In this document: piece after piece, positions 19,467-50,095 of the stretch
Position numbering within the stretch: the first letter of the stretch is position 1
How the letters are laid out: each line of letters opens with the position of its first letter
DNA from: Diacronema lutheri
Lineage: Eukaryota; Haptophyta; Pavlovophyceae; Pavlovales; Pavlovaceae
DNA: 64,000 bases
Direction: 5' to 3'
NCBI GenBank assembly: GCA_019448385.1
Contig: JAGTXO010000006.1
Coordinates: 1,302,001 to 1,366,000 of the forward strand
Translations under genes and position numbers: made by a program
Notes under the pieces: model-generated
What the model saw: only the letters and a program-made list of their open reading frames with translations
Databases searched by the model: none
What the model was told of the DNA's origin: nothing

Positions 19467-19499
<33 letters not shown>

Positions 19500-29330: not shown

Positions 29331-30467
29331 CGCCGAGGAGGTGCCGCCGCTCGCTGCCACCCGGCGCGGGCTCGGGGCAGCCGTCTTCGGGTGCCGCGCT
29401 CTTCGCGCCATGCACGAACGTTCCGCCGCGCTCGCAGCGCGCGAGCGCACACACAGAGCGCGCGGCGACCCCGGCGGGGGCAGTGCGTCCCGGTGGCACT
29501 CGCGGGCGCGCGCCTGGCCTGGGCGCAGCTGGGCGCGTTGCCGCCCGCGCAGCGAGCCGCCCGCGCGCCTCGCCGCGCGCGCGCTTCGTCGCACGCGTGC
29601 GCCCTGCATGCACGCGCACAGCGCGCGGCGGCTCGGCGCAGTGCAAGGCAGAGCGTGCTGCAACGGTTGCGAGGGCGCGCACGCGCGGCGCGGCGCGCCC
29701 CTGTGTGGTCGCCTGCGCGCGGCGCGTGGTCCGGACGCAGCTCGGTGGCGTGATGCCGTTCGTGCAACACAGTGCGCGTGAGAGCCGCACGTGCACACCT
29801 GCAGTGCAACGCGGCATTGCGCGCGTTGCGTGGGCGGAGCGCGGCTGGATGTGCTTGAGGTCGCGCAGCATGCCGCGCGCCGCGCGCTGTGCGGCGCAGC
29901 GAGTCGGCCATGCCCCTGGTCCTCGTCTCCGGGGGGGGGGGGGGGGGGTGGTGGTGGCAACCAGGATCCGCCAGCGCGTGGTGGGCGCCGTCCAACTCCC
30001 AGCCAGGATGCGCCCCGTTCTTCCCCGACACTCTCCGTCCAAACCCGCCGCCCAGCCTGCCGCCGCACCCGCCGCCAACGCCGCCGCGCACCCATCCGCC
30101 GAGCTCACCTCGCGCGCGCTCGCGCTCACGCTGCGCGACGAGGCTGCGCAGGCCGGCGCGCGGCCGTGCAGAGCAGCGCAGGCCGGCGCGCGGCCGCGCG
30201 CGCGCGCTCACGTTGCGGCCGCGCAGCGAGCTTTCGCCGCGTCGCAGCCCCTCCGAGCAGCCACGATGCACGCCCCCGGAGGACGTTGGCCGCGCTCGGA
30301 GGCCGCGCTCGGGCGCGCAAAGAGAGGCGGCGCGGGCAAACGAGTAGGCTCGGCGCGCTGGCGGGTCCTGGTTGTGGGAGAGCGGGGCATTCTCCAGGGC
30401 ATCATGTAAATTCTCCCAAGTATCATCCGGGCCGCCATCCGGACACTGACGTGCCCACAGTCTGCAG
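29331..30467. other. Gene-free GC-rich stretch before the giant ORFs
   Basis: All frames are open and Arg/Ala-rich; none is convincing. It holds an 18-G run at 29931-29948, and the direct repeat GCAGGCCGGCGCGCGGCCG occurs twice (about 30148 and 30179). The last 60 bp (ATGTAAATTCTCCCAAGTATC, 30403-30423) is relatively A/T-rich and may hold the promoter of the next gene. Confidence 0.45.
29931..29948. repeat. G-run, 18 bases
   Basis: Uninterrupted, preceded by CCTCGTCTCC, the same lead-in as the intronic C-run at 27525. Confidence 0.9.
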
Positions 30468-33400
30468 ATGGAGGACTCCGTGAAGGACGCTTTGCCCGGC
30501 GGGCGGGGCGGCTCGGACAGTTTCTCGCTGGCCCTCAGCACCATTCTGTCGCCGGGAGATACCCACCCCCACGTGGTCCCATCCACTTGCCTCATCGCCC
30601 TGCTGCGTTACGCGGATTTCGGCACGAGCAGGGTTAGGGTGGGCGACACGGGGTGCTCGCAGCATGCGCTCAAGGTGGCGCTGCGCAACCTGCGCAAAGC
30701 ATGCGCGGATGCGGACCGGTTTGGGCAGGTGCTCGTGGTCGTGCTACCGCTCTGCCTCCGCGCGTCCAGCGGCCTCGTGCACTGGACGGCGGCGTACCTG
30801 CTCCTCGCGCCGCCCGCGCAGCGCGGCGCGCCGCCCGGCGCCGCGCTCGCCCTGCTCGCCGATTCGCGCACCTTGGGCAACGGCGAATCGGCGTACGCCA
30901 CGGCGGCCGGCGTGCTCATCAAGAAGCTTGCGCAGCGCATCGGCAGAACAGCGCCGCCCATCGATGCCTTCAAGGCGCCCCCGCAGAGTGGGGCCGCGTG
31001 TTGCTTCGCCGCGGCAACAGTCGCGGCCGAGGTCGTGGCGAGCGCATCGACGCTCTACGGCCGCCGCGCGAGTGTCCTTGTCGACATCAAGAAGGCTTTG
31101 GACGCGCGCCTCGCGCGCCTCACGACGGCCGCGTACGAGGAGACCCGCGCGCGCACGCTCCGCGCCGCCATCGGCGCTCTGCTCGGCGACCGCGCCAGGC
31201 GCTTCGGCCCGTTCACCCGCGAGGCCGCGCGGCTCGCCGAGGCCGCGCGGCTCGCCGAGGCGTGCGATGCCAGTGTCGGCGGATCCGCGCCCGACGGGCT
31301 GCTGCAGGCCGTCGAGGCGGCGCTGCGCGCGCCCGACGACCGCATCGCACGCACGGCCGCGCTCGACGCGCTCACGGGCGCTGCAGGCCGCGCGCTGTCG
31401 ACGGCGGCCAGGCCGCGCGGCGCGGCGGCGCCAAGGCCGCCGTCGCGAGCGCCACCGCCGCGTGCGCCGCAGCGGCGCGCCGCCTCGGCGTGGGGGCCCC
31501 GACCATTCAGCAGCCTCGGCGGGGGCGAGGGCGACGGGGACGATGGCGACGCCACCACCGCTGACGACGGGGAGGGCGCGGAGGACGGGGACGACGACCC
31601 CGCGGGCGCGGCGGCTGCGGCGGTGGCGACGGGCACGGCGGCGACGAGCGCGGTGGCGGCGGGCGCGGCGCCAACCTCGCCGGCGGCGGCGGACGGCGGT
31701 GGCTCGGCGCCGCTCGAACGCCGCTGCGTCTACACTGCGCCTGATGAGGGCGACGCGGACGCGCGCGTGTACGACGCCAAGGACCCCGAGCAGCTAAAAG
31801 CGGGCAGGGCGCGGCTACGGGCGAACAGCGGGCGCGCGCCCGCCGTGGTCGACACGCTTTTCGCGCACGCGACGGGCACGATCGTCACGCGGCAGCGCAC
31901 GGAGGGCGTGACCGGCGCGGGCATGCACCACCTCGCCGCCCCGACGCAGGGCGCGGGGTACGGTGCCGTCGTGCGGGCCGAGCTGGGCGAGCCCGGCTTC
32001 GCGGGGACGACATGGCACATGACGTCGGGCGTGGAGAACCAGCCGCGCGCGGTACGAGCGGCCGCGCGCGCGTACGCGCACGACGGCTGGGGCGGCGTGT
32101 ACAATGCGCACGAGGACTTTGCCGCCTTCGAGGGCTTGCCGCGGCTCGCCGCGCCCGAATCGCTCGCGGCCATCGCCGGCGGGTCGGCGGACGCGGTGTT
32201 CTGCTGGCGGTCCGGCCGGTCCGTCATCGGCGAGGTGACGACGGTTCACTTCAATGGCGACCGCGCCGCCGCCATCGACCACGCGCGGGCGCTGCGCGTC
32301 AGGCCCGATTGGCGCTCGCAGCCCAGGATCTACGAGGCGGCGTGCGGCGCGGAGGGCACGGTGCTGCTCGTGTGGGTCGTGCCCGACCGTCACAAGAACC
32401 CGCGGCTGGACTGGGCGCCGATTCTCGTCGTGATCCACCTGCCCGCCGACCCCGACTGGCTCGCGCGCGCCACGCCGGCGATCGCGAAGGCGCGGCGCGA
32501 GGTCGAGGACGGACGCGCGCGCGCGGAGGCGCGCGGCGTGCCGCAGCACCTCGCCTACACGCTGAGCCCACGCTTCCGAGGCACCGCGCCGCGCGGAGCC
32601 GCGCGCGTGCCGCCGCGCCTCGGCGCGAGCGACGCGCGCGAGGCGCGCGCGCTCGCGGCGCTCGAGCCGGCGCTCATGTTCGCGCCGGCCTGGCGGCGCG
32701 CGGTGCGCGCGGCGAGCCGCGCCCCCGGCAGTGGCGCCGCGGCCGTCGAGCGCGCGCTCGCGCGCCTGCACAACGCGCTCGAGCCCGATGACGAGAGCGC
32801 GCCCGAGTCGACGCGCGTCGCGCCGCTCGCCGCCGCGCTCGAGCAGTCGGCGGGCTGGCCGGCGGGCACGGCGCGCATGGCGGCAAGCGTGACCAAGGGC
32901 CCCGGCGTCGGAGATGGCGCAGGTGGCGACGAAGTGACCAAAGTGGAGGAAACGGCGAAGACGAGCGGCGACGGCTGCACCGGCACGCCTCCTCTGCGCC
33001 CGGCCGCGCGCGCGGCCGGCGCGGCGGACGACGGAGGGGCGGCGGTCGTGGCGGGCGTCGAGGGCGAGCGCGACGCACTCGCCAAGACGGGTGCCGGCGG
33101 CTGCGACGACGACGCTCGCGAGCCGCTGTCGGCCGGCAAGCCCGGCGCACTCGCCGCCGCGGCGACCGTCGGGGGTCTCGGCGAGCTCGTCGGCAGCCTA
33201 TGCGCGTGGCTGGCGCGCGGCGCGGCTGGCGGCGCCATCGCGGCCATCTCCCCCGGGACGGCCGCGCGCGGAGCAAACGGCACGCCGCAGCGCGCCGAGC
33301 CGCCGGCCGCCGGCGATCCCGTCGCTCCGCACGCGCGCGTCGCCGCTGCGGCGCCCTTGGCGGGCAGCGCGGCGGCGCCGTCGTCGGCCGCGCGCGACGC

Positions 33401-34487
33401 GCAGCGCGGCGTCGCGGGATTCGACGCGGCCGCGCACGCGCACGCGCGCGACGGCAGGCGGGCGGCACGGCGGATGCGCGAGCAGGAGGGGGCGGTGCAC
33501 AGGGCCTTCCGCATGTCCCTCTGGCGCGACGCGACGTTTGTCGAGTTCGTTGAGAAGCTGCGCCCCGACGGCGGCGCGCAGCTGCTCGCGCGCGAGCCCA
33601 CGCGGCGCGCGGCGGCGGTGCTGTGCGAGCTCGCGCGCGGCCGCGACGGCGCGAGCGGCGCGGCCGGGCTGCTGCACGAGATGAGAGCCGCCGATGCGCG
33701 CGCGCGCGAGGCCGCCAAAGCGGCGGAGGCAGCGCAGCTTGCGCACGGGACGCTGCGCATCGTGGCAACCGTGGCGCTGGGCGGTGCGGTCTTCGCCGGC
33801 ATGTCAGCGCTGGTCGTTGCTTGCGCGGCGCGCACGGCGACCGGTGCGCTTTTTGGGGCCCGCCGCCCGCGGGCGGCCGCGCGCGGAGCCGACGACGCGC
33901 TCGGCACGCTGCAGCGCGCCAAGCCGCCGCCCGCCGACAAGGGCAAGCGCAGGCGCGCCAGAGCCAACGACGACCCCGTCGACGCGGCGCGCAAGGCCGT
34001 GGGCAAGGCGGAGGGCAACTGCCGCAAGGCAGCCCGCCGGCTGCACCTCGCTGCACTGGGCGAGGAGGAGGCGCAGCAGCGCGTGCTCGACGCCGAGGCG
34101 GCGGAGCAGCTGGCGCGCTCGCGCGAGCCGGCCGGCGGCTGGGTAGGCAGCGCGCGCGCGCGCGCGCGCGCGCGCCCCGCCGCGCGCGCGCCCGTCGATT
34201 GGCGTGCGCGCAGCGCAGAACGGCGCGCCAGCTCCGTCACCTGCGCGCCGCCGCGCCCGTGCCCCTCGCGCGCAGGGGCGCCCTGCGGACCTGCGGCTGC
34301 AACAGGCGCACTTTGGCATGCGCGAAGATGCCGACGCGGAAGTGCGCCGCGCGCACGAGGCGCTGCGCCGGGCGAGACAGGGTGTGGCGTGCGCCAAGGC
34401 CAGCGTGCGGCAGATGGAGGCGGCGTTGCTCAACGCGACGCGCTGCGCCACCGCGGTGCTCGCGCCGCGTGGCGTGCCGGAGGGTGA
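30468..34487 (+). CDS. Giant ORF 1: Ulp1-like protease, PD-(D/E)XK-like domain, membrane helix
   Basis: ATG at 30468 (MEDSVKDALPGGRGGSDSFS). Residues about 40-190 have the C48/Ulp1 signature order: His105 in LVHWTAAYLLLAP, Asp132 in LLADSRTLG, Gln173 and Cys178/179 in APPQSGAACCFAAAT. A disordered acidic linker (GGGEGDGDDGDATTADDGEG) follows. Around 31,850-32,560 a conserved-looking region includes MHHLAAPTQGAGYGAVVRAE, TTWHMTSGVENQPRAV and ADAVFCWRSGRSVIGEVTTV, whose D...(E)-x-T spacing fits a PD-(D/E)XK nuclease; this is tentative. After long linkers comes one hydrophobic helix (VALGGAVFAGMSALVVACAA) and a Lys-rich coiled coil (AVGKAEGNCRKAARRLHLAA, EEEAQQRVLDAEAAEQLARS). Past about 34,140 the frame turns Arg-rich and probably is not coding, because the next giant ORF takes over within 200 bp in another frame. 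Confidence 0.7.
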   Translation: MEDSVKDALPGGRGGSDSFSLALSTILSPGDTHPHVVPSTCLIALLRYADFGTSRVRVGDTGCSQHALKVALRNLRKACADADRFGQVLVVVLPLCLRASSGLVHWTAAYLLLAPPAQRGAPPGAALALLADSRTLGNGESAYATAAGVLIKKLAQRIGRTAPPIDAFKAPPQSGAACCFAAATVAAEVVASASTLYGRRASVLVDIKKALDARLARLTTAAYEETRARTLRAAIGALLGDRARRFGPFTREAARLAEAARLAEACDASVGGSAPDGLLQAVEAALRAPDDRIARTAALDALTGAAGRALSTAARPRGAAAPRPPSRAPPPRAPQRRAASAWGPRPFSSLGGGEGDGDDGDATTADDGEGAEDGDDDPAGAAAAAVATGTAATSAVAAGAAPTSPAAADGGGSAPLERRCVYTAPDEGDADARVYDAKDPEQLKAGRARLRANSGRAPAVVDTLFAHATGTIVTRQRTEGVTGAGMHHLAAPTQGAGYGAVVRAELGEPGFAGTTWHMTSGVENQPRAVRAAARAYAHDGWGGVYNAHEDFAAFEGLPRLAAPESLAAIAGGSADAVFCWRSGRSVIGEVTTVHFNGDRAAAIDHARALRVRPDWRSQPRIYEAACGAEGTVLLVWVVPDRHKNPRLDWAPILVVIHLPADPDWLARATPAIAKARREVEDGRARAEARGVPQHLAYTLSPRFRGTAPRGAARVPPRLGASDAREARALAALEPALMFAPAWRRAVRAASRAPGSGAAAVERALARLHNALEPDDESAPESTRVAPLAAALEQSAGWPAGTARMAASVTKGPGVGDGAGGDEVTKVEETAKTSGDGCTGTPPLRPAARAAGAADDGGAAVVAGVEGERDALAKTGAGGCDDDAREPLSAGKPGALAAAATVGGLGELVGSLCAWLARGAAGGAIAAISPGTAARGANGTPQRAEPPAAGDPVAPHARVAAAAPLAGSAAAPSSAARDAQRGVAGFDAAAHAHARDGRRAARRMREQEGAVHRAFRMSLWRDATFVEFVEKLRPDGGAQLLAREPTRRAAAVLCELARGRDGASGAAGLLHEMRAADARAREAAKAAEAAQLAHGTLRIVATVALGGAVFAGMSALVVACAARTATGALFGARRPRAAARGADDALGTLQRAKPPPADKGKRRRARANDDPVDAARKAVGKAEGNCRKAARRLHLAALGEEEAQQRVLDAEAAEQLARSREPAGGWVGSARARARARPAARAPVDWRARSAERRASSVTCAPPRPCPSRAGAPCGPAAATGALWHARRCRRGSAPRARGAAPGETGCGVRQGQRAADGGGVAQRDALRHRGARAAWRAGG

Positions 34488-37400
34488 CGAGCAGGCCGCG
34501 GCGAGAGAGCAGGCGGCGCTGGACCGGGAGGCGCCGCCGGCCGCGCAACGCGCGGCGCCGACGGCGCGCTCGCCCTCGGAGCCGCCGTCCGAGTGGGGCC
34601 CGCCAGCGGTCGGCCGGCGCCCGACGCCGCGTGCACTGTCGCACGCCGCGGGTCGCGGGGACGACAACCCGTTTGCGCCGCTCGCAACCGTCAGCGGCGA
34701 TTGGTCGCCCACGCCGAGCTCGCGCTCGCCGTCCTCGCCGCCGCGGCAGCCGCCGTCCGACCGCCGCAGCGCGCAGCGTCGCAGCGCGCGCGCGCGGCCG
34801 CCGAGGCCGACCGTTTCGCCCGAGGACGCGCTCGCAGCCGAGCGCCAGGCGCGCGCGCTGTCGGAGCAGGCGGAGCAGAGGCGCGCCAAAAAGGCCGCCG
34901 CCAAGGCCGCGCGCCGCGCCGCGCGCGCCGCCGACAAGCGGACGGCGCGCGTCGTCCACGCGTGCGTAAGCGCCGCCTTGCGGCGCGTCTGCACGAGCGT
35001 CGCCACGGGCACGCCGCTCGCCGTGCTCCGCGAGCGCGCCGAGGGGCCGCGCGCGCCGAAGCCCGCGCCCGCGCCGCCACGCCGCGCAGCGGACGGCGGC
35101 CGCGCGCTCCGCCACGCGCGCCGTGCGGCCGCCGCGGCGGCGGAGCGCGAGGCGGCGGTGGCGGCCGACGCCGACGAGCGGTTCGAGCGGCAGCCCTCCG
35201 CCGCCCGGTTCGACGGCGGCGATGGCGGCGGAGGCGGCCACGTCGAGGCGAGCGCGCGACCGCGCGCCGGCGAGGCCGGCGAGGCTGGCGCGCACGGCGC
35301 GCCTGGCGCAGCGGGGACCCCGGCGGCGTCGCTCGCGTCGCGCAGCCCGTGTGATGCGCGCCGCACGGCACGCCTCCCGCACGCACGCGCCGCAGCCACC
35401 TGCGCACGCAACGGCGGCTGGGGTGGCAACGTCGGCGGCGACGTGTGCGGCGGTTGTTTCGGCGGCGGCGGCGTCCGTCGCGACGCCTGCGGCGGCGGCG
35501 ACGCCACCTGCGGCTGCGGCGATGGCGGCGTCGGTGCTGGCGCTGGCGAGGCCCCTGCACACGGTGCGCCGGCGCGCGCGACGGCGTCGCGCTTGCTGCG
35601 CTTGCTCGGCGCGCCACGCGCCGTGCTCGGTGCGATGGCGCACGCCGCGGCCGTGTTGGCGCGCGGCGTGGCCGCAGCCGTCGCTGGCGTGCGCGCCGCC
35701 GCGCGCGCCGTGCGGCGCGCGCGCCGCCGAGCGCCTCGCGCGCGCCGCACGGCTGCGCGGCGGGCTCGCGGCCCGCCGATGCGCGACGTCGACGGCGCCC
35801 TGCGGCCCTCGCCGTCCTGGTTGCGCACACGCCTCGTCTGCGGCCGGCGCCTCGCGCCTCTGCGCCGCGCGGGCGCGCGCCCGCCGCCCGCACACGCCGC
35901 GCCGAGTTCCCGCGCGCGCGCTGCGCAACCCGACAGCGACGCGCCGGCGTGCGCGCCGCGGCGCTCGGCGCCTGTCGGTGCGCCGCCGCGCGCGCGTGGC
36001 CTGCGCGCGGCGCGCGCACGGCGCTTCCTCGACGTCGCCGGCCGCGCGGCGCGGAGCGCGCGCCTCGGCGCGCGCATCACGCGCCAGCGCACGCCGGGTT
36101 CGCCATCGGAGCCCTGCACGGCCGAGAGCGGCGACGGCGCGGGCGCCGGCGGCGTCGGCGCGGCGGCGCCTGGCGCGGCGACGATGCGCGCCACCGGCGC
36201 GCGCGCAGCGCGCGCTGCGGCGGCGGCGGTCGGTGGCGCCTCGCGTCTCGCGCGCCGCGCGATGGCAAGCGCCGCCGCCGCTGCCACCTCCATCGCCGGC
36301 GCTGCCGCCTCCACCGTCGCCGCCGCCGCCGTTGCCATCGGCGCGGCCGTCACGTCACCGGCGTTCGCCGCGGCGCGCGGCATGGCGGCCGCATGCGTCG
36401 CTGCCTGCGCCCGCCCCACCGCCGCGCAGGCGGCCGCGTCGCGCGCGCTCGGCGCGCTCTTCGTGCTCGTCGACGCGGCCGACGCGGCGGGCGACAGCGA
36501 CGCCGCGCTCGGCGCGCTCGCGGCCGCGGTCGACGCGACGGAGCTGCGCCCGCCGCCGGCCTTTTGGCGCGCGGGCCGCGCCGCGGCGTACGCACCGCGT
36601 CCGCCGCCCCTCGACTCGGCGCGGCCGCGCTACAACCGGCGCGCGCGCGCACCTAGCCCTCCCGTCGCGGCCGCGCGGCGCAATCTCGCGCGCGCGGTGC
36701 GCGAGCTCACGCGCGCCGCGCGCGCTGAGCGCGAGCGCGCGCCGGCGCCGCGCGGCGCGCGCGGCGGCGTGCTCCACGCGCTGCGCGCGTCGCTCCCCGT
36801 GCACGCGCGTGCCGCGCTCGGCACGGACGCGGAGCTGCGCGCGGACATCGCCGCGTTCGCGCGCGCGCGCCGCGAGCTGCACAGCCTCACCGACGCCGAG
36901 GTGGCGGCGCTCGCGCGCCCGGACGGGCCGCCGCTGCCCGTGCGGCTCGCGTGCACGGCGGTCGCGCGCGCGCGCGGCGTGACCGTGCTGCTCGACATCG
37001 TGCCGCGCGGCGGCGGCGCGCCCGAGCGGCTCGTGTGCCGCGCCCGTCGCCGCGGCGCCGCCACGCGCACGCCACGGCCGACAGCCGCCGTTATCGCGCG
37101 CGCGCCTTGCATAGCGGCGCGCGTTGGCCACACTGAGCCGGCGCGCGCGTGCGCGGGCGGATCGATCGGGGTCGCGCGCCTCCGTTCAGCGCGCCGCCGC
37201 TCTTGGCGTGGGGCGCGGCTCGACGTGCACACCCGCGAGCGGCTGGCCACACCGGTGCCAGGCCACGTCGTGGCCTGCGCCGCCGCCTCGGCCATCGGCG
37301 CGTGCGTCGCTCGCGCGCGGCTTGGGCTTGCACGGCTGGCGCGCGCGTGGCCCTGCGCCTCCGCTCCACTGGCCACTGCTGCTGTCGCCTTCGCGCCTGC

Positions 37401-38723
37401 CGCCGACGGTGTTTTCTGCGCCCCGCTGGGCGCTCCTGCATCCGCCTTCGCGCCTGCCGCCGACGGTGTTTTCCCCGCCGCACTAGCCGCTGCTGCATCC
37501 GCCTTCGCGCCTGCCGCCGATTTTCCCGCCCCACTAGTTGCTCCTGCACTCGCCTCCGCGCCAGCCACCGACGGCGTTTTCCCCGCCCCACTAGTCGCTG
37601 CCGCTGTCGCGTCCGCGCCTGCCGCCGCGGGCGTGTCTTCCGCCCCACCAGCCATCGCCGCCGCGCCCGCCGCCAACGTGCGCACCGCCAACGTGCCCGT
37701 TGCCAACGAGGCTACCGCCACCGAACCAGCCGCCCTTGAGCTTCCCCTCCAACCCGCCAACTCGGCGCTGCTGGCGTGGGCGGGCGACGCGGCTGCGCGC
37801 CGGCTGGCCTCCGCCGCCGCGAGCGCCGGCCTCCCGCAGGCAGAGGTGGAGCGCATCGCCAGCGGCGACATGCTCGCCTCAACCGTCGACGCGTGCTGCG
37901 AGGTCGTGCTGCGCGTGCACGGGCAGGCCGGCGGCGGGCATGTCTGCCACGTGCCGCTCGCCGCGCAACCCGCGGTGTTCCAGGACGGCGCCGAGCGCGC
38001 CGCGCTGCTGCACCGCCTGCGCAGCGAGGCGACAACGCAGGCTGTCATCGGCGTGTGGAGCCCGTCGGACGAGCGCGGCGGCGCGGGCAGTGACGACGGC
38101 GCGCAGCTCGCCTCCGGCCATTTCACCGCGTTGCGCCTTGTGCGCGTCGCGCGCGCGGGCGAGCATCGCTACGACGCGGTGCTCGTCGACACGCTCGCGT
38201 CGCCCTGCAGGCAGGCGCTCATGCTCGCCAAGGCGATAACTGCCACGCTGCACGCGGCGGGTCTCGACATTTCGCGCGTGCGCCGCGCGCTGCTGCTCAA
38301 CGAGGCGGCGCAGCGTGGCGCGACGTGCGGCCTCGCGATAGTGGGCGCGCTCAACGACGCGCTCGCCGCGGCGGGCTGCTCGTCCGCGCCGCGCACGTTC
38401 AGCGTGGCGGACATGTACGCTGTCGGCGAGCGCCTCCGCGTCGCGCTGACCGGCGCGGCCAGCGATCGTGCGCCGGGCGGCGTCTGCGCGGTCACGAGCG
38501 CGGTGCGTGGCGGGGGCAGCCCCGATCGCGCCGAAACGCCGCCGCAGACGCGCGGCGCCAAGGCCGCCGCTGGCGTCACCGCCGCCGCCACCGCCGCCGC
38601 CACGCCGCCGCCGCCCGCGCTGGGCGCCGCCGCCGCCGCCACCGCCGCCGCCGCCGCTGCTGCCGCCGCCGTGGCCGCGCCGCCACCGCCGCCACCGCCG
38701 CCGCCGGCCGGCGACGAGGGCGA

Positions 38724-38811
<88 letters not shown>

Positions 38812-41800
38812 GCCGCGCGCACGTTCTTGAAGCTCGCGCCCAGGGCGCGCGCGGCCGCCTCGGCGCGTGAGGCGTTGCGCGCCGCGTGTGCGCGCGCGGA
38901 CGCGGCGGCGTCGTCACACGCGTCGGCGCCGCACGCGCCCGCCGGTGCGCGCCGCCGGCGGCGCGCGGGCGCAGGCGAGCTGGCGCTCGCGGCTGCGCGC
39001 GCGCTCGCCTCGACGGAGCACGGCGATTTGACGGACGACGCGCTCGAGGCCGCCGTCGAGCAGGAGCTGGGCGACGAGCGCGGCCAACTGCTGCTGTGCA
39101 CGCGGGGCGCAGCGGCGCAAAGGCCCGCGCTTTGCCGGCTCCTGAAGCACGCGTGCGCGTCGGCGCGCGCGGCGAAGCGCGCGCAATTCACGGTGTTCGT
39201 CGTGCGCGCGGCCACGCGCGGCGAGCGGGGGGGCGCCGCCGCGAGGCGCGTGGACTCGGTGGTCGAGCTGTCGTGCGCGCTGCACGAGAAGGCGGGCGCG
39301 CTCGGCGGCCTCCAGCGCGTCTGTGTGCGTGGCTTCGCCCTCGAGCGCCGCCGGACACTCGACGCTGGCGCCGAGGCCGGCGCGTCCGCCATCGGCCAGG
39401 ACGAGCAGGTCGAGGCAGAGGCGGGCGAGGCGTGCGTCGCCGGCGTGACGATGGCCAAGCAGCTGCGTCAGTTTGCCGAGCAAGCTGCCCGCGACGACGT
39501 GCTCTTCCACGTCGCCGTGTCCGAGGCCGACGCCCACGCCCGGCTGGCGCGCGTTGCGGGTGACGATGTCGGCGCGTACAGCGTCGTGCTCGCAGTCGCC
39601 GGGCTCGTCTGGCTGGCCAAGGCCGACGAGGTTGCGCCGGCGGCCGCCCAGCCCGCCGCCGTGCCGCCCGCCGCCCCGCCTGCTGCCGCCACGTCCGCCG
39701 ACGCCGAGCGCGACGCCTCGCCTTCCGACCGCCTGCGCGCGCTGACGCTCGCCGTGCCAGTCGCGCTCGCGCGCGGCGTGCTGCGCCACCTCCTCGCCGA
39801 CGCGTCGCCGGGCGCGTCCGCGACCGCTGGCGGTAGTTGCGCGACGCCCGTCGAGGCGGCCACGTCCGCCGCCGCGCCGCCCGCCACGGGCGTCGTGACG
39901 AGTGGCGTTGCGGCGGGCGCTGTGGCGGCCGCACCGGCTGCTGCGGGCGGTGCGATGGCGGGTGCATCGCCCATCACGCGGCCGGCGAAGCGCGCGCGGC
40001 GCACGCTCACCGCCGCTCCAGCCGCCTCGGCCGTTGCGGCCGCTGGAGGCGCACGCGCGGGCGCACGCGGCGCGGCCGGCGCGCCTCGCGCGCGCGCCGC
40101 GCGCGCGCCGGCCGAGTACGTCTGGCTTGCCATCGCGCGCCGGATGCTGGCGGCGCGACACGCGGCGGCCGCGGGCGGCGACTTTGTCGCGTCGTGCGTC
40201 GCCGCGATGCAGGCCGAGTACGGCGACGGCTGTGCCGTCGTCGTCGGCGACGCGCCTGATGACGCCTTGGTCGAGGCTGCGGCGGCGGCGCTGCTCGAGG
40301 GCAAGCACGCGGCGGTGAGCCTCGGCTGCGTCGACCGGCCGGCGGTGCTCGTCGTGCAGCGCGCCGTGGACGCGCCCACGTCGCGCGTGCACGGGTGGTG
40401 CGCGCACGCGGCGGGCGCCGCCGAGTTTGACGAGGGCGCCGCGCGCGGCGTGTTCAACGCGATCGTCGAGCGCGCGTGGGCGCTGCGTCCGGACCCGGCC
40501 GACGGCAGCCCGCCGCCCACGCGCACGTGGGAGGTCGAGCAAATCGCTGGCGACGCGCCCGACCAGGCGGGCGTGGCCGCGCTGCGCGTGCTCTACGCGC
40601 TCGTCGCGGCGCACGGCCGCTACCGCTCGGCCGCCGCGCTCTTTGGCGCGCTCGCGCAGCTGCACGCGCCCGACGCCGCCGGCGCGCGCGCGGAGGTCGT
40701 CGCGGCGGCGTGCGCGGTGCCGCCCGGCGCGCGGCCGGGCGCCGCGCCGGCGGCCGCGCGGGACGACGCGAGGGAGCGCGCATGGGAGGGCGCTCAGATC
40801 GCCGCGCTCGCCGTCGGCGCGGACGCTGCGCGCAGGCGTGTCGCGCCCGTGCGCGCGCTCGTCGACGCGCTCGGCACGCCACCGACCTCGGCGATCACGG
40901 GCGGGCCGGCGGTCCGGCTCGCGGGCGCGGGCGACGGCGGCCACGGTGCACGGTGGGTGGGCGGGCAGGCGGCGACGCCCGCCGAGCAGCTGCCGAGGGA
41001 GCTGCTGCGCGCCTACCACGAGGCGGTGCTGTGCGTCACGCCCGGCAGCCTCCAGCTCGGCCCGGCGGCGCTCGACGCGGTCACGCGGCCGCGCGAAAAC
41101 GACACGCTGGAAGGCCTCCTCGCGCGCGTCAGCTGGCAGTGCGGCGCGAGGGCGAGCACGTGCGCCATGCTCGCCACGTTTTCCGAGCAGGCGGGCACCG
41201 GCTCGCGCGTCGCGCTCAAGGCCCTCCGCACGAGCTCCGACCTGGCCGGGCTGACGGCGGCTGCGGTCGGGCAGCAGGCGCCGCAGACGCCGCCGCCGCC
41301 GCTGCTCGTGATGCTCGGCCGCTGCCCCAGCCCGCTCGTCGGCGGTGGCCTCTTCCCGCCCGACCGCGCGACGGGCGAGCCGGCGGTGCACGCGGCGACG
41401 TCCGAGCTCGCCGTCGAGCTGCTGCGCGACGCGCGCGCGCTGGCCGGCACGGACGGGCGGCTCGTCGTGCTGTGCCTCGAGGCGTCCAACCCGCTCTGGT
41501 TCTGCCCCAAGGTGCGCGAGCTCGAGCTGCCGCGGACGCGGTCGGACGGCGTGCGCGCGTCCGGCTGCACCTGCCCTGCGACGTGCAGCGATGCGCGCGG
41601 CGCGGCGGGTGGCGCTGCCCGCGGCGCATCGACGCGGCCGGCGGCGCGCGCGATCAACAAGGCGGTGCTCGACCACTTCGTCGCGCTTTTCGGCCGCGAG
41701 GGCTTCGCGACCTTTGAGTTTGCGGGCGGCGGCGAGGCGAGCTGGCTGTGCGACAGCGCGGCCGGCACGACGACCGTCGCGGCGTGCGCGTCGCTGCCGC

Positions 41801-44800
41801 CGCGCATGGGCGATGGGCAGCTGGCCATCCGGCGGCACACGCTCGGCACGGGCGCCGACGCGCCGGCGCACGCCGTCGTCTCGCTCCGCGTCGCGCACGT
41901 GAGCCACGCCATCCGCCGCGCGGCGGACGACGGCGGCGCGCGCGCCGAGCGGATGGCGCGCGCCGCGCGCGCGTTCTGCGATGTGGCGGCCGCGCTGCGC
42001 GTCGACGCGATCCTGGCGGAGGTGCCCGAGGACCGCCCGACGGGCACGCCCTTCCTTGGCGGGCTGCTCAAATGTTGGGACAAACGCAACGGGAGCTGGA
42101 CGGCGCCAGCCACGCTCGCGCTCGGAGACGTGCGCGAGGTGGCCAAGCGGACGGCCGACGCAGCGGCCGGCCGAGCGGACGAGGTCCCTGCGGCTGGCCG
42201 TCCGCAGGTCGCGGCGCGCGCGTGCGCTGGCGCGATTGGCGGCGGCGCGGGCGCGGCGGGCGCCTCGGACGCTGCGCCGCGTGCACTGGCGGGCGCGTCG
42301 GGTGCGCGCACGGACGGCGGCCCTGCCGACGCACCGCGCCAGCTGGAGAGCCGCTACGGCGAGGCGAGCAAGCTCGACCTACCCCAAGATTCCACTACGG
42401 GCCGCGTCCTCGACGCTCGCGAGGCCCAGGACCGCGCGCGCGTGCCTGCTGCGCCCGACGGCACAGCGCTGCGCCGCGTGCTCGACGCCGTCGGCGCGGG
42501 CGCGCCCGCGCAGCGCAGCCCGCGCTGGCACGACGAGCGATGGGAGGAGGTCACGGGCAGCAAGGTTGGCGACGTCGTGAACGACAACGCCGGCGTCGCG
42601 CACGAGACGCTCACCGACGAGTACGTGCACCGGCGGCGGCGCGAGGTGCGGACCAAGGCGACGACCGCGGGCATCCTCGGCGAGGCCGTCGCGCTGCGCA
42701 AGCTGGCGGCCGCGTACGGCATCACCGTCGTGTGCAACCTGCCGATGGTGCGTGCGGACCCGCACGACAAGAGCGCGCCGTTCGCCTTCTCGCCGGACGG
42801 GCTCGCCATCCTCCCCGAAAACAACGAGCAGGTCCTCGTCGAGGTGAAGACGCTCACCAAGGCGGGCGCCACGGCGCACGAGGACGGGCCGCCGCAGCCG
42901 CACCGCGATCAGCTGCAGCTCGGCATGCACGTCCTCGGCGTGAGCAAAGCGCTCTACGTGCAGTACCTCAGGCACGAGGACCGGATCGTCGTGCACGTCG
43001 TGACGCGCGGCGCCGGCTGGCTTGCATTCGCGCAGCCGAGGGTGCAGGCCTTCTGGGCGCGCGTCGTCGAGCGGCGCGCGCGGCTCGAGCGCGCGCGCGC
43101 CGACCACCCGGCTGCGAGCCGGCGGCACCGGCGGCAGCAGACGCCGGCCGGGCCGCCGCTCGTGCTCGCGCTGGACGGGCGCATCCCCGCCGCGCGCGCC
43201 GCCGCGCTGCACGCCGTCGCGCACGGCACCGCGAGCGCGGCGGCGGTGACGGCGGCGGCGGCGACGGGCGACGCGACGGCGTTGCAAGACGCGATCGCGG
43301 CGCTGCGCGCGCCCGTCGGCAATGCGGCGATCGACAGCGCAGCGCGTGCGGAGCGCGCGGCCGTCGAGCGGGCGATCGCGTACCTCGGGCAGCCGGCAGG
43401 CGACGCCGCCGCCCGCGGCACGGCCGAGGCGGCCGAGGAGGAGAGGACGGTCGACGCCGACATCTGCGCGTTGCTGCACCAGCTCGGCGCGAGCGTGGCG
43501 CACGTGCACGTCGAGGACGCGGATTGCGTCACGCGTGAGCACTGGGGCGGGGCGGTGCTCGCTGCAGCGGGCGACCCGTCGAGCGCCCCCGCCATTTCGA
43601 GCGTCATCGTCGCGCACATCGTGCGCCTCGCCGGCTTTGGCGTCGAGCTCCCGCAGTCGATTCGCGTCGCCCCCAGCACGGCCGACTGGCACGAGGGCTG
43701 GCTCGACGTGCAGTGCGTGCTGCTGCGCACGCGCCGGCGCGGGCGGCGCGACGACGACTTTGTGGCCGTCGTCAGGCGCGGTGGGCGCTGGTTTGCGTGC
43801 GAGCCCGGCCGCGCGCGGCGGCTGCAGTGGCGGTCGGTCCTGCGCCGCGCGCGCGGCGGCGTCGACGGGACCGGCGAGGAGGCGTTCGCGGTCGTCTACG
43901 TGCGGCGCGGCGACGCGGCCGGCGACGCGGCTGGCGACGCGCAGGCCGAACGGGCGCGCGGCGGGCGCGCGCGCAGGCGCACGCGCGGCGGCACGCGCAA
44001 GCGCAAGCGCGGCGCCTCCGCCGGGCTCGAGGCGGCCGCGCCCGCCGGCGCGCCGGCGGGCGCTGCTCACCGCCCGCCCGCCAGGCGTGCCACGGTCGCC
44101 GCGCGCACCACGCGCTCTGTGACCGACGCGCGGCACTCGGCGCCTGCCGCCACGGTTGCACCTGTCTTCGACTGGCGCGCCGGCCGCCCGCCCCCTGCCG
44201 CCGCCGCCGCCGCCAAGCGCGGCCAGGCGCTCGAGCCGGGGCAGTTCGCGCGGCCGCGTGGGCGCGCGCCATGGGGCAAGGTCTGGGACAGAGTCTCGGG
44301 TGCGTGGGCGGACAAGCCGACTGGTGCTGCCGTCGCCGCCGCGCCGCCGCCGCTGCCGCCCGCCGCCGCGCCGCCGCCCGCCGCCGCGCCGCCGCCCACC
44401 GCCGCGCCGCCGCCCGCCGCCGCGCCGCCGCCCGCCGTCGCGCCGCCGCCCGCCGCCGCGCCGCCGCCGCCGCCGCCACCGGCGGCGCTCGGCCGCCGGC
44501 AGCACGTCGGCGCGGGCGGCAGCGCGGCGGGCCGGCGGCTCGCGGCCATCGCACGGCGGCAGCGCGGCGTGCGCGCGCCGCCGCCCGCCGCGCGCTTCCT
44601 CGCCACGCTGCCGCCACCGCCACGCGACGGCCTCGCGCGCACGAGCAAGCAGGCGCGCGCGAGGCGCAACGCGGACGGACGGCCGGCGCACGCGCGCGCG
44701 GCCAACGCGCGCGCCTTCTACCGCGGCGTGGAGCTCGGCGTGCACGCGACGCGCGCCATCGTCGACGCGCGCCACGCCGACCTGCCGCAGGCCGTCTTCG

Positions 44801-47703
44801 TGGCGGAGGCGCGGGCGATCGTCGCGCGCTCCGCCGGCGGCGGCGCGCTGCTCGCGCCGGACGACGTGCGCGACCTGTGCGACGCGCAGACGGACGCCGA
44901 TCGCGCTGCGATCTGGGCGTCGGTGGGCGCGCACGAGGCGACGCGCATCTTCGCGCTCGTCACGCGCAACGCGAGCTTGGCGGGCGCGGCGCTGCTCGTG
45001 CTGCACACGCCGGCGGGCGCGCCGGCGCGCGCGCTCGGGCTCCTGGCGACGCGCTCGCGCGCGCCGTCGACGGGCGCGCCGCGCGACGCGCACAGGGCGC
45101 TGGTGCAGCGGTTGGACGTGCTGATGGACGCGATCGCCGCGGCGCGAGGCGCGTCGCCGCTCGAGCTCGAGCTCGCGCTCGCGCCCGAGCCGCAGAGCGC
45201 GTGCAACGCGCGTGCGGCCGCGCTGCTCTGCCTGCAGGCCGTCGCGGACGCGAGCGGCCGTCCCGCCGCTGAGGACGCGCTGGCCGCGCTCGACGACGCG
45301 CGCGGCATCGACCGGCACTGCCACGCCGTCCGGCAGCAGATCGAGGCGAAGCTCGCGTGGCGGCGCGCCGACGGCGCCGTCGGCGTTGACGGCGCCGACG
45401 GCGCGCCCGCGCTCGCGCCTGCCGCCGCACCGCCGGCGTGCGCGCCGGCGCACGCTGCCGGCGAGGCGGCGGTCGACCAGGCGATCGTCACGCGGGTGCG
45501 CGACGCGCTGCGCGCGTGGGCGACGACTGGCACCGCGCCCAGCGCGGCGGTGCTCGACGACGCCTGCGCCGCGTACACGGCCCGCGCACGCGCGCGCAAG
45601 GACGCGCGCACGGCGCTGGGCCCGACGCGCGCGGCCGAGCTGCTCGCCGCGGCCGCGCGCGGCGGAGCCGACGGGGCGGATGCCGCGCGCGCGCTGCTCG
45701 GCGGCACGCCGCGCCTGCTCGTCGTGCTCCTCTGCGTGCCCGTCGCCGCGCCGTCCGGCGAGCCGCCGCGCCCGGTCGGGCTGCTCGTCGCCGACCGGCC
45801 GACGGACGACTCGCGCCCGGCCGCGCTCGTGCGCTACGACTTTGCGCCGCTCGACGCGGACGTGGCCGTCGCGGTCGGCGCGCATGCCGTCGCGCTGGCC
45901 AGTGCGATCTGGCCGCTGCTCGCGGCCGAGGGGGAGCCGCGGCCATCGCCCGTCGTGCGCTCGCAGCCGCGCGGCGGCGACGATGGCGCGCGTGCGCTCG
46001 CAACGTTCGCGTGCCTCGGCGCGCTGATGACCGCCAGCGTCGGCGCGCACGGCCTCGCGGGCGGCGCGGGCATGCTGCCCGCGCTGGTCGCGCGAGGCGC
46101 CGCGGCCGCCCAGCGCGAGCGGCAGCTGCGCGCGGCCGCCGAGAGGCTGGGCGGCACGGTCGCTGGGTGGCCGGACACGGGCGCGAGCGCGGCGGGCGCG
46201 AGCGTCGACGAGGAGGCGCGCACGTACGAGGTCGAGGCGGTCGTCGACGAGCGCCGCAAGGCGGGCAAGAAGGTGACGTTCCAGTTCCGGATCAGGTGGC
46301 GGGGCTACGACGAGAGCGCCGACACGTGGGAGCCTGAGGCCAACGTGAGCAGCGACCTCGTCGCCCAGTTCCGCAAGACGCGCGACGAGCAGAAGCGGCG
46401 CGCGGGCGTATCGGGCAGCGGCAGCGGCAGCGCGGGCGCGGCGTCGGCATTGGCGTCGGCGCCGCTTCGCGCGCACGGCGAGTCGGGCGCCGCGGGCAAG
46501 CGCGCCGCGGCGGGTGCCGCCGCGAGCGCGCGCGACGCCGCGAGCGCGCGCGCGCCGAGCGTTCCCCGCGCGCGCGGCGTCGAGCGCGCGCGCGTGGACG
46601 AGCCCGCTGCGCCGAGCGCGCGCGCCGCCGGCGGCGCGACGGCGCGCACGCGCGTCAGCGTGCTCCCGGGCTTCGTGGTCAAGCGCTCGACGCTCAACGC
46701 GGGGCCGCAGGCGGTGACGGCGCAGCCCGGTGCGCGGAAGGAGCTGCGGCGCATCGCGGCGGCCGTGCACAGGCTCACGACACAGGCGTACCGCGTCATC
46801 AACAAGGTGGTGCGCGACGAGGCTGCGGTGGCGAGCGCGCAGGCCGTCGGCGCGGCGTCGGGCGGCCCGTCGACCAGCGTGCACACGTCGACCACGATGG
46901 ACAAGGGAACCGTCCGTGCGATCTTCTCGGCCATCGGCTGGCACAAGGACGAGAGCACGTACGGTGCAGCGCCCCGAGGCAAGCCCGCCGAGCAAGCCGC
47001 CGCGCAGACCAAGGCGGCGACGGCGCGCGCCGTCGGCGAGATGGCCGAGGGCGTCCAGCCCGTCTGCGCGGTGGGCCTCACGGAGATCCTCGAGGCGGAG
47101 GCGACGCAGGTGTCCACCGCGTGCCTGATGCATCCATCGCGCGTCGTGAACGGGCTGCTCCGCGACGTCGTCCGCGCGGCAGTCGAGCGCGACGAGGCGC
47201 TCGTCGCGCTGCCCGAGATGCAGCGAAACGCGCGCGTGCGCGAGCTGTGCGAGCGGCTGCTGCGCGGCGACGTGGAGGGCGCGCGCGTCGGCTGCCCCGC
47301 CGCGCTCGACCGCCACCTGCCCGACATGGTCCTCCACAAGATCGACTACAAGTGCACGCCCACGAAAAGGTGGAACTACGACCGGCACACGACGCGCTAC
47401 TTCCTCGTGCAGATCCGCACCCTGCAGCACGTGGCCGAGGGGCAGGCGCTGCTCTGCCGGCTCGCGCACATCCACACGCAGCTGACCGGACGGCCGCCGC
47501 GGTACAATGTGGCGCCGCTGCGCACGCACAATGTGCGCGCGAGGCGTGGCTGCCGCTGCCGCCGCCGAGCGCCCAAGCGCGCGCGCCGCCGCCGTGCGCG
47601 CCGCCCCGCGGCCAGGTTGGTCACGCGCCCGCGCGCTCGCGCGCCGCGCGCTGCGCGCAGGTGCCGCGCAACGTGCGCCTCGCCGCGAGCGCCATCTGGG
47701 TGA
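34318..47703 (+). CDS. Giant ORF 2 (about 4,460 residues): Ulp1-like, YqaJ-like, chromodomain, start of Fanzor
   Basis: Open from 34204; the first ATG is 34318 (MREDADAEVRRAHEALRRAR), continuing the coiled-coil style of ORF 1, so the two may be exons of one gene. Modules in order: Ala/Arg-rich disordered regions; a second Ulp1-like protease (about 37,740-38,450; His in ASGHFTALRLVRV, Asp in AVLVDTLASP, Gln and Cys in AAQRGATCGLAIVGAL); a poly-Ala tract; helical regions with no known fold; a possible endonuclease/phosphatase-like strand (about 41,880-42,060, RVAHVSHAIRRAAD, VDAILAEVPED); a YqaJ-like exonuclease (42,515-43,090; SPRWHDERWEEVTGSKVGD, FAFSPDGLAILPENNEQ, VLVEVKTLTKAG, HRDQLQLGMHVLG); Pro/Ala linkers; a chromodomain (46,221-46,390; TYEVEAVVDERRKAGKK, FRIRWRGYDESADTWEPEAN); and the helical front of a Fanzor (46,660-47,540; DMVLHKIDYKCTPTKRWNYD). 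No close relative was recognised for the whole. Minus-strand frames here are shadows. Confidence 0.72.
37381..37640 (+). repeat. Imperfect 60-bp coding repeat, about 4-5 units
   Basis: Each unit encodes variants of SAFAPAADGVFPAPLVAAA. It is in frame and lies just before the second Ulp1-like module. Ala/Pro/Phe composition suggests a flexible spacer. Confidence 0.8.
38725..38812 (+). repeat. (GCC)n tract encoding about 27 alanines
   Basis: A nearly pure GCC microsatellite just after the second Ulp1-like module, in frame with giant ORF 2. It gives poly-Ala in this frame and poly-Pro or poly-Arg in the others, which explains several long shadow frames. Confidence 0.9.
44340..44490 (+). repeat. 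24-bp Pro/Ala coding repeat
   Basis: Tandem APPPAAAP units (about 6) in giant ORF 2, between the YqaJ-like region and the chromodomain. A probable extended linker. Confidence 0.85.
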
Positions 47704-49385
47704 CGCTTTCGGATGACGAGCGCAAGGAGCTGCGCGCGCGGCTCAAGGCGCTGGACCTGCGCGACCACGATGGCGAGCCGATCAAGTGGACAGGCACAAA
47801 CGGCAACACCCCGCCGATGTCGGACGTGCGCGTCAGGTACGCGGTCTTTGCGACGCGCTTCGACATCTCCAACCGCGTCTTCGACTACGCCGGGCGCGAG
47901 CGGCCGCCGGCCGATCTGCCGTGGCACGCGCGGCGCTCGTGGGTTGGCCTCGCGCCGCTGCCGCGCGTGCCGCTCCCGGGCCGGCAGCCCGTCAAGTCGG
48001 TGGTGACAGATGGCGTCGCCGTGCACGCCGTCGGGACCGTCCTCGTGCCGAAGGCGCAGGCGCCGGCCGGCGGCTCGGGCGTCCTGCACCGCTGGCGCCG
48101 GCCGGACGGGCGCATCGCCGTCGCGCTCGGCTCCGAGCTGCGGCGGGCGATCGACGTCGAGGCGGCGGTCGTCGTCGCGGCCGACCCGAACATGGGCAAC
48201 ATCACCACCTACTCTGCGCACGTCGGGCGGGCGGCCGTCTGGCGGCAGTTCACGCAGCGCGCGCGCGCGCGCGCCGCGGGCTTTGCGCGCGAGACGGCCA
48301 AGACCAACGCGGCGCGGCGGCGCGTGCGCAAGGACGGGCGCGGCGAGGAGTTCAGCGTGGAGGCGGACGAGGCGCGGCTTGGCGAGGCGCACAGCGCCAA
48401 GGTGCTCGGCGAGGGCGAGTTCCACGCCTTCCACCGCGAGAGCGCGCGGGTGCGCGAGCGCGCCGCCGAGCACGTGTACGACGCGCCGGCGCGCCGGAAG
48501 GAGCGCTGGCGGCGCGACAGCGGCGGGCGGTCCAACGCGGCGCGCGTCGCCGAGGCGCTCATCGCGGCGCACTGTGTCGACGGCGTGACGCGCGACCGGC
48601 TGCTCGTGTGCGTGGGCAAGTGGCTGCGCGACCACAAGGGCGCGCAGCCCAAGGGCGCGCCGCCCGCCTTCCAGGTGGGGCTGCTGCGCGAGCTGCGGCG
48701 GCGCGGCGTCGCGGCCGTCTTCGTGCCCGAGCCGTACACGTCGATGCACTGCTCGATGCCGCGGCTCGCCAAGGGCGGCAGGCTGCAGCGCTGCGGCGCG
48801 GAGCTCGCGCAGAACCCGCGCCTGCCCGTGGCAAAGGGCGGCACGCGCACGGTGCACGCGCTCGTCATCTGCCCGGCGTGCAACGGCGGCAAGAAGCCCG
48901 TGCACCGCGACTACAACGCCGCGCGCAACATCTTCTACGACGTGCACGACATGGCGGCGCACGCGGCCGGGCGCGACACCACGTCGACGCCTGAGCGCTT
49001 TGCCCTCGTGCTCGCCTGGTGGGCGCGCGGCGAGGTGTGGGAGCGTGAGGAGCGCATGGTGCACGGCGAGGGCGACGACTGCGACGACGAGTGCGACGGC
49101 GACGACGAGGGCGACGACGAGGGCGACGACGACGACGACGACGATGGCAGCGGCGACGGCGGCGGCGGCGAGGGCGACGGCGACGGCGACGGCGACGGAG
49201 GCGGCGGCGGCGACGACGACGATGACGGCGGGGGAGGCGGCGGCGGCGACGGCGGTGGCGACGACGGCGGCGGGCGCGGCGGCGGTGGCGGCGGCGGCTC
49301 TCGCGCCCGCACCCCCGCCCGCGGAGCTGCCAGCGCCAGTGCCGGCGGCGGCAGCGCGCGCGGGCCGAAGCGCGGCCGGCGTTGA
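47662..49385 (+). CDS. Fanzor (TnpB-like RNA-guided nuclease), C-terminal part
   Basis: The frame follows giant ORF 2 after a GTGCGC...GCGCAG interval of about 130 bp that looks like an intron. RuvC-I is VVVAADPNMGNITTYSAHV (Asp codon 48182). The region GAPPAFQVGLLRELRRRGVA leads to VFVPEPYTSMHCSMPRL (Glu codon 48729), where Fanzors keep the E-(Y/F)-x-TS-x-x-C motif that replaces the classical RuvC-II Glu. Zinc-ribbon Cys are in LQRCGAEL and LVICPACNGGKK. RuvC-III is VHRDYNAARNIFYDVHDM (Asp codon 48909), the near-universal TnpB/Fanzor D-x-NAA-NI motif. All catalytic acids are present, so the nuclease part looks whole. Fanzors are eukaryotic RNA-guided DNA nucleases carried by transposons and giant viruses. 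A Asp/Gly-rich tail of about 90 residues and a basic end (RGPKRGRR) follow the core. Its N-terminal half is in the preceding frame next to a chromodomain. Confidence 0.85.
49060..49290 (+). repeat. Asp/Gly-coding low-complexity tail
   Basis: GAC, GAG and GGC triplet arrays encode DDEGDDEGDDDDDDD and then alternating GGG and DDDDD blocks at the end of the Fanzor frame. Strongly acidic, then basic at the very end. Confidence 0.9.
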
Positions 49386-49453
49386 CGCACGGCCGAGCCG
49401 CGCAGCGGTCGACGCTTTGCGGGCTCTGCCCAGGTCGCGCGCGGCTGGCGACG

Positions 49454-49471
49454 CGTGCCGCGCGCGGCACG
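49454..49471. other. 18-bp perfect palindrome after the Fanzor stop
   Basis: CGTGCCGCGCGCGGCACG, 69 bp after the stop codon. Candidate hairpin of a guide-RNA scaffold, terminal structure or 3'-end signal. CG-rich palindromes also arise by chance in this composition. Confidence 0.5.
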
Positions 49472-49784
49472 ACCGTGCACGCCGCCACCCGTGGCCGAGC
49501 GCGCCGCACCAGCCGGCCCGCTCCAACCGCCGTGCGGATCACGGACGCTCGCTACGGCTCGTCGGCGCGCGTCACCTGCGCCGGCGGCCACGGCGCCGTC
49601 TGCTCCGGCCTCGTCGCGAGCAGCCCGACCGCTGCTCGCCGCCCGCACGCCGCCGCAGCAACGCTGCGCGTCGTGCTCCCCCGCTCGCCAAACGCGAAGA
49701 GCTCCCTCACAAGGACGTCCTTCCGAACGGCCCGCGCTGCACTCGGGGCGCGATCGTGCCCCTGATCGGATTTGGCTTGACCAT

Positions 49785-50095
49785 CTATACGACTGACACG
49801 CCTTGCAGCGTTGGCGATTGGCGGGCGACCCTTGCGTGCACGCATTCCACGCTCTCATCGTCGCCCTGCTCAATCTCTGCGGATCCGCGAGCAGACCCGC
49901 GTGCAGCCTTGGCATGCCCCGGGTTGCCTGGTGTGGCTGGTGTGCGCGGCCGCACGACTCGCATCATCCGCGTCTCGTCCCTCGAGCGCCCGCCCGCGCG
50001 CATTGGCTGCATGGCAGCCAGGCGATGCGTAGCGCGTAGTCTCTGTGCGTGGCGCGACGCCGAGGCGAGGCTGCCGAGGTCGTCGTCGTCCGACA
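49785..50095 (-). CDS. Weak ORF, about 103 residues
   Basis: ATG at 50095 gives MSDDDDLGSLASASRHAQRL and ends GDDESVECVHARVARQSPTL. The acidic start and end are unlike the Arg/Ala shadows around it, but no domain or partner exon was found. Confidence 0.25.

Follow-up and report, generated by a model that had tools for sequence, protein, structure and literature searches.

A young, high-copy family of 31-kb DNA transposons encoding a Fanzor nuclease in the haptophyte Diacronema lutheri

Here, we describe a 31.04-kb mobile element at positions 18749..49790 of a 64,000-bp stretch of the Diacronema lutheri genome (C89:1302001-1366000, hereafter the window; the genome comprises 43,492,796 bp in 103 contigs). 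The element was delimited by blastn against its copies elsewhere in the genome and is oriented by its coding strand, the plus strand, on which its main genes lie. An original prediction, made from the letters of the window, had singled out three giant frames in this region and proposed that together they might encode, as a single gene or a polyprotein, some 6,000 residues. The three frames make up the inner genes of a single transposon copy, and we are close to certain that this copy belongs to a young, high-copy DNA transposon family in this haptophyte, measuring ~31 kb when complete.

Genes and features of the element

The three open reading frames (ORFs), ORF1 (30468..34487), ORF2 (34204..47703) and ORF3 (47121..49385), are open on the plus strand as predicted, and their codon-position GC (guanine plus cytosine) content supports all three as coding, but they overlap, ORF1 with ORF2 and ORF2 with ORF3, rather than abut. 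The codon-position signal, ambiguous at 35-38 kb, changes frame near 34.0-34.3 kb and 47.5 kb, bearing out the joins predicted at 34.1-34.3 and 47.5-47.7 kb, and either switch could hold a short intron. Openness is weak evidence by itself in this region because DNA of 75-82% GC is expected to give long frames on every strand, and the window holds 129 ORFs of at least 200 amino acids. The frames had also been taken for linked parts of one thing, which agrees with all of them lying inside one 31-kb repeat; the span first proposed (30468..49385) includes the inner genes but leaves out the element ends and the helicase and USP genes described below. The N-terminal 1,200 residues of ORF2 are mostly of low complexity, much of ORF1 and ORF2 lacks any match in Pfam scans, and zero relatives of the giant ORF2 were found among 1,397 scored candidates. 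Profile scans, here and throughout, took in both strands at 18.7-28.7 kb, the plus strand in three frames at 28.7-38.7 kb, ORF1 to ORF3 and the minus strand at 38.7-47.7 kb; most of the minus strand at 28.7-38.7 kb and the minus strand at 47.7-49.8 kb fell outside them.

Upstream of these frames, a Helitron-type PIF1-family helicase gene runs through successive frames at 22118..24551 on the plus strand, with helicase segments at about 23120-23347, 23425-24423 and 24381-24551 (Pfam PF05970 and PF21530, tblastn). The PIF1 and Pif1_2B profiles match in successive frames, and we read it as a spliced helicase. The proteins matched at E 1e-10 or better (at least three, among 8,000 candidates scored) combine PF14214 with PF05970 in three of three cases, and by these alignments the element helicase is closest to Helitron helicases and is classed as Helitron-type. 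Like that of Helitron RepHel proteins (PF14214 plus PF05970), its helicase part aligns lengthwise in three segments; unlike in RepHel, the Rep (HUH) half is matchless, the tblastn protein alignment to the element being confined to the helicase part, and a different N-terminal part of 330 amino acids without an assigned family occupies its place. Profile scans, tblastn and a motif scan near the helicase found no HUH Rep domain joined to it, and PF14214, the Helitron Rep profile, has a single match genome-wide (C63:35738-36019, E 8.3e-23).

A USP-type (C19) deubiquitinase-like protein with a Cys box (26333) and a His box is encoded at 26003..27115 on the plus strand, matching the UCH profile at E 3.7e-6 and, in PDB, the USP12 His box at E 0.016 and the USP7 Cys box at E 0.39 at best. 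It resembles USP deubiquitinases in having both boxes and differs from them in being compact and on a mobile element. Judged by these matches, the element's clear cysteine protease is this putative USP at 26.3-27.1 kb, beyond the span originally considered. The two C48-like (Ulp1-like) proteases of the original prediction found no such backing, with no relevant match in Pfam searches with sequence pieces (to E 10), PDB (to E 10) or NCBIfam (to E 1). A C48-like triad pattern does occur once in each of ORF1 and ORF2 (in ORF1 as H-D-Q-C from residue 105), recurring in 0 of 2,000 shuffles in its strict form and in 2.9% and 14% in its loose form, though these patterns were composed post hoc, after the sequence had been read. 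Self-comparison did not pick up any repeat shared by the supposed protease modules. The first PD-(D/E)XK-like domain, predicted in ORF1, likewise drew nothing relevant from Pfam (to E 10), PDB (to E 10) or NCBIfam (to E 1). A stretch of ORF2 (43051-43893) judged by eye to be USP-like was rejected, with no relevant match in Pfam, PHROG or PDB searches.

The predicted YqaJ-like exonuclease and chromodomain were both recovered. A YqaJ/lambda-exonuclease-family nuclease domain lies at 42526..42936 (plus strand), with scores of E 5.1e-4 for the Pfam piece (20.8 bits against a 22-bit cut-off), E 1.9e-6 for TIGR03033 (28 against 68 bits) and E 8.1e-11 for a RecE-like PHROG match. As in the lambda exonuclease, YqaJ and RecE family, the profile match spans the nuclease domain, which here, unlike there, is set in a giant eukaryotic frame; no RecT/Bet annealing partner turned up in profile scans. 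The chromodomain, near the end of ORF2 on the plus strand (46225..46377), matches Pfam at E 5.6e-12.

The RuvC half of a Fanzor lies in the ORF3 frame at 47661..49385 on the plus strand (PF07282 at 48693-48932, E 2.4e-6). ORF3 aligns with protein P0005 at 46% identity over 95%, starting at window position 47,661, and the Fanzor/TnpB motif order, D-X(125,275)-[TS][TS]XX-C4 zinc finger-X(5,50)-RD, is intact (D355, T540-S541, CPAC 584, R596-D597). These residues were located individually; the automatic pattern match used a different D as its start and a different RD as its end. The N-terminal half is plausibly the end of ORF2, at approximate limits of 46600..47540 on the plus strand, given its position and the frame switch, although window 46201-47538 matched nothing useful in a homology search for this WED/REC part. 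The single Fanzor predicted to be split over the last two frames is therefore found in its ORF3 half and plausible in its ORF2 half, and Fanzor and chromodomain probably form one protein. Of the Ulp1, YqaJ and Fanzor similarities originally expected, profile searches returned YqaJ and Fanzor but not Ulp1.

The Fanzor gene ends 400 bp from the element 3' end, and the non-coding 3' region that follows (49386..49785, plus strand) is by its position a candidate omega-RNA scaffold ending at the element 3' end. Positions 49540-49789 fold with a z of -2.0 (7 of 200 shuffles as good), positions 49589-49788 are identical in 40 of 40 copies scored (40 of 269 candidates), and the region has no Rfam match. 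In known systems, guide RNAs of TnpB and Fanzor arise at this end of the element. Like TnpB of IS200/IS605 and Fanzor as described in the available text of PMC10432273, the D. lutheri nuclease has the RuvC and zinc motif order and a gene near the right end of its element; unlike these, it probably shares a protein with the chromodomain, and no IS-type TnpA partner was found. A search of prokaryote genomes found no relatives of this Fanzor.

Other Fanzor families of D. lutheri (L001-L008, L024-L028; for example at C9:378667, C71:952894, C4:1222915 and C53:160833) outscore that of the window on PF07282. Several are in frames of 1,300-1,780 codons, and those fetched have little DNA in common with the element. 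One such locus, L027 (C53:158000-163000), is a composite in which a Copia-like reverse-transcriptase/RNase H fragment (recognized by eye) and a stretch resembling the element 5' part occur together with a distinct Fanzor, whose frame of 642 codons lies on the minus strand. The internal module of ORF1 recurs there, adjoining this Fanzor, as a frame-shifted relative with 71% identity.

Ends, copy number and size classes

The 15 family loci first compared have DNA identities of 97.6-99.9%, and over all copies retrieved the range is 97.6-100%. At the right boundary, the seven loci with sequence beyond it (L015-L021) lose the match at 49,787-49,791 and the other eight run into a contig end, the match to L011 ending at 49,596; at the left boundary, all three copies traced lose the match at 18,745-18,748. 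The ends are exact to about 6 bp, with this doubt arising because TATA motifs stand at both. The 5' terminus, TATATA[G/C]GGCGCGG (18749..18762, plus strand), reads (C/G/T)TATATA[G/C]GGCGCGG in 13 of 14 copies and TATAGAG in the remaining copy, with C as the preceding base in 11 of the 14 and TATA at every one of the 14 junctions. The 3' terminus, CCATCTATAC (49781..49790, plus strand), ends the element in CTATAC, and among 33 distinct interior copies (the window counted) 32 have TATAC at the 3' junction. The 3' flanks of these 33 copies differ, although a few have a local repeat in common.

End-to-end inverted similarity over 40, 100 and 200 bp is no better than in shuffles, and thus no terminal inverted repeats were detected. 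An empty target site was sought via duplicated flanks and none was found, the sole candidate having just 28 bp in common, so a duplication of 0, 2 or 4 bp and a TATA owned by the element are indistinguishable; a strict 4-bp target duplication of TATA is disfavoured by copy L018, whose 3' side has CTAACG. At the copy L053/L070 (C9:2.91-2.94 Mb), GAGGACTATAT flanks the insertion on both sides, longer than in the other copies examined.

Genome-wide, allowing at most one mismatch, there are 223 matches to a 24-mer from the 3' end and 219 to a 28-mer from the 5' end, with reversed-pattern controls at 0; with many copies, common ends and different sites, this is a mobile element. Ends were paired using 93 of 100 listed 5' ends and 97 of 100 listed 3' ends. 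A same-strand 3' end was found for 68 of the 93 typed 5' ends, giving 34 copies of ~31.0 kb, 9 of 29.2 kb, 7 of 26.2 kb, 12 of 21.5 kb, one each of 14.6 and 12.6 kb, and 4 that are longer, while 25 had no partner inside 60 kb. The mean of 28.3 kb multiplied by 219 comes to 6.2 Mb, or ~14% of the genome, a rough share because unpaired ends may come from shorter pieces.

Searches with 27-mers (at most two mismatches; controls 0) counted 202 helicase, 219 YqaJ, 178 ORF1-module and 230 Fanzor matches in the genome. Taking a gene as absent from a copy when no 27-mer matched within two mismatches, the helicase pattern is present in 34 of 34 copies of the 31.0-kb class and missing from all 9 of 29.2 kb, all 12 of 21.5 kb and 2 of 7 of 26.2 kb, and the ORF1 pattern is missing from 12 of 12 copies of 21.5 kb, 7 of 7 of 26.2 kb, 6 of 9 of 29.2 kb and 1 of 34 of 31.0 kb. 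Of the paired copies that could be assayed for each gene, all 62 retain YqaJ and 57 of 58 retain Fanzor, also where the helicase or ORF1 module is gone. The short size classes look like non-autonomous derivatives that retain the 3' half.

Locus L011 (C8:1-6000) is a diverged copy, with 83-86% DNA identity to 37,976-38,670 and a large deletion adjoining, hinting at an older subfamily. Nine of 100 listed 3' ends lie almost at a contig end, a few bases away at most (C1, C3, C5, C6, C8, C10, C12, C13 and C14), as does one of 100 listed 5' ends (C32), which repeat-driven contig breaks explain as well as placement at telomeres or chromosome ends. The 5' non-coding part of the element contains a palindromic tandem-repeat region (20747..21618; ~91% self-complementary by self-blast), about 870 bp of 100-bp repeats that alternate between inverted and direct and make up a long palindrome in which CACCCTA-like repeats occur, and it varies between copies. 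A possible small spliced gene lies in the same part on the minus strand (19700-20470), with a codon-position signal near 20.0 kb and no match in a Pfam scan. By Pfam scan, the element region is bordered by host genes: a NADAR-FHA-RRM gene (13842-15143, minus strand), which has all three domains together in a single frame, and genes for FBPase, a decarboxylase, an H+-pyrophosphatase and PEPCK.

Signs of selection and a proposed mode of spread

Comparisons among copies give signs of selection on the helicase, USP and Fanzor genes. Across 18.75-31.5 kb, three copies differ from the window by 39 single-nucleotide polymorphisms (SNPs) and 19 insertions or deletions (indels), while the helicase, the USP and the ORF1 start are free of both. 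In the presumed second exon of Fanzor, synonymous changes make up 22 of 54 variants where 12.3 would be expected (P 0.0024), with nothing significant in shifted frames; this variant set drew on 41 copies at the 3' part and 14 at the 5' part, with two low-complexity stretches masked and L011 and the repeat fetches L043, L049 and L050 left out. The net indel length of a copy is divisible by 3 in 7 of 7 entries for the unmasked coding parts vs 2 of 7 indel-bearing copies for the 3' non-coding part.

We regard a Fanzor-bearing transposon family as the probable best explanation overall, with moderate confidence. For its spread we tentatively suggest a joint mechanism, which we put forward with less than even confidence, in which unwinding by the helicase would let the element transpose replicatively (by a single strand) into TATAC-like sites, and a guide transcribed through the element 3' end into the host flank would direct Fanzor to cut those copies of the site that are empty. 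Resection of the Fanzor break by the lambda-type exonuclease could then follow, with recombination copying the element in, and the USP and chromodomain may oppose ubiquitin- or chromatin-based silencing by the host. A bolder extension, which we consider unlikely at present, would make this a new superfamily of giant transposons without a classical transposase, in which a Rep-less helicase, a lambda-type exonuclease and a chromodomain-tethered Fanzor spread the element by RNA-guided breakage and recombinational copying, shielded by a deubiquitinase, until it made up about one seventh of the genome.

Several observations weigh against this interpretation. The SNPs and indels of 18.75-31.5 kb cluster in repeats and homopolymers, so sites prone to mutation or misassembly could account for part of the contrast with the helicase, USP and ORF1 start. 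Singleton variants contribute most of the Fanzor excess (10 of 13 synonymous, P 0.0023), whereas 12 of 41 shared variants are synonymous, which is not significant (P 0.075); so weak a signal in shared variants is odd if selection acted on active lineages only. ORF2 has no synonymous excess, with 3 of 16 variants (5.0 expected), 8 of 36 (7.7 expected) and, in an unmasked run, 14 of 67 (20.0 expected). The retention of YqaJ and Fanzor could come from where deletions chanced to fall, and hairpins at the element ends are no stronger than in shuffled DNA. By Pfam, DDE, tyrosine-recombinase and HUH domains are absent from the frames scanned, leaving the integration step unexplained, and a motif scan near the helicase found no Helitron-like HUH motif. 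A loose motif scan for a tyrosine recombinase was also empty, though a very diverged one could escape it.

Alternative explanations and significance

Two alternatives place the missing step elsewhere, each of which we judge doubtful while taking it seriously. The element could be a Helitron2-like rolling-circle transposon with its HUH Rep supplied in trans from the one Rep-bearing locus of the genome, the PF14214 match noted above. The Helitron affinity of the helicase and the absence of terminal inverted repeats fit such an origin, as does the published occurrence of Fanzor1 in algal Helitron2 elements (PMC3627910, in its available text). A 10-bp near-match, GCGCGGTCCG / GCGCGGGCCG, even stands where an asymmetric terminal inverted repeat (ATIR) would be expected, yet 222 of 500 shuffles equal its score. 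No Rep was found in the element itself, however, its 3' end is CTATAC instead of CTRR, neither the 5'-TC/CTRR ends nor an ATIR with hairpin was found, its hairpins are at chance level, and 202 helicase pattern matches face a single Rep match. Alternatively, an unrecognized recombinase or transposase in ORF1, ORF2 or the helicase-protein N-terminus might move this large element at TATA sites. The uniformity of the junctions (TATA at 14 of 14 5' ends, TATAC at 32 of 33 interior 3' ends) and the big matchless stretches of ORF1 and ORF2 leave room for one, but the frames scanned gave no integrase-family profile match, and a single-sequence AlphaFold model of the helicase N-terminal part was uninformative (pLDDT, the model's confidence score, 36).

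Other explanations fare worse. Large DNA viruses commonly encode lambda-type exonucleases, helicases and proteases, and a size of 31 kb would also suit an endogenous virus or viral remnant, but no capsid, polymerase or packaging Pfam match was found in the frames scanned. Searches found no relatives of the element in phage records at the DNA level or in viral contigs, the latter by pattern-based searches that mainly detect close relatives, and we consider a viral origin very improbable. Hardly credible is the original proposal, in which a single host gene would encode a protein or polyprotein of ~6,000 residues and the Ulp1-like proteases within it would cleave it. The frame switches are compatible with short introns, and the post hoc triad patterns speak for it, but the frames lie within a 31-kb multi-gene repeat of ~220 copies with common ends, the ORF1 module is gone from whole copy classes, and there is no C48 profile match; the copy number rules out a unique host gene altogether. 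Also rejected were a DDE cut-and-paste transposon, for which neither terminal inverted repeats above shuffles nor a DDE profile in the frames scanned was found, and a tyrosine-recombinase element such as Crypton or Starship, for which those frames held no Pfam match.

The closest described elements we found are CRe-1 to -3 of Chlamydomonas reinhardtii, which the available text of PMC3627910 presents as non-autonomous, Fanzor1-bearing Helitron2 elements that insert after TTTT and are often 5'-truncated. Like these, the D. lutheri family consists of DNA elements in an alga, is linked to Helitrons, includes numerous copies with internal deletions and has a Fanzor gene that is probably spliced; unlike them, it measures ~31 kb, has TATA ends and no Rep, and carries a USP, a lambda-type exonuclease, a chromodomain and a helicase. 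The module set had been predicted to be undescribed, and in keeping with this we found no open-access paper, in the text available, that describes this gene set, although absence there is not proof. The D. lutheri genome paper (PMC8379373) reports a genome that is 22.9% repetitive and names long terminal repeat (LTR) and long interspersed nuclear element (LINE) sequences, and a word search for 'transposa...' in its available text gave nothing; the element family described here could explain a large part of the D. lutheri repeats.

The role of Fanzor for eukaryotic elements was called unknown in a 2023 activity paper (PMC10432273, in its available text). A culturable alga is now seen to hold a young, near-identical, high-copy family whose Fanzor has signs of selection and is kept in nearly every assayable paired copy, and because such a family lives in a culturable alga, the role of Fanzor in spread is directly testable. 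A Rep-less Helitron-type helicase together with a deubiquitinase and a chromodomain on a transposon would widen knowledge of how elements move and evade silencing.

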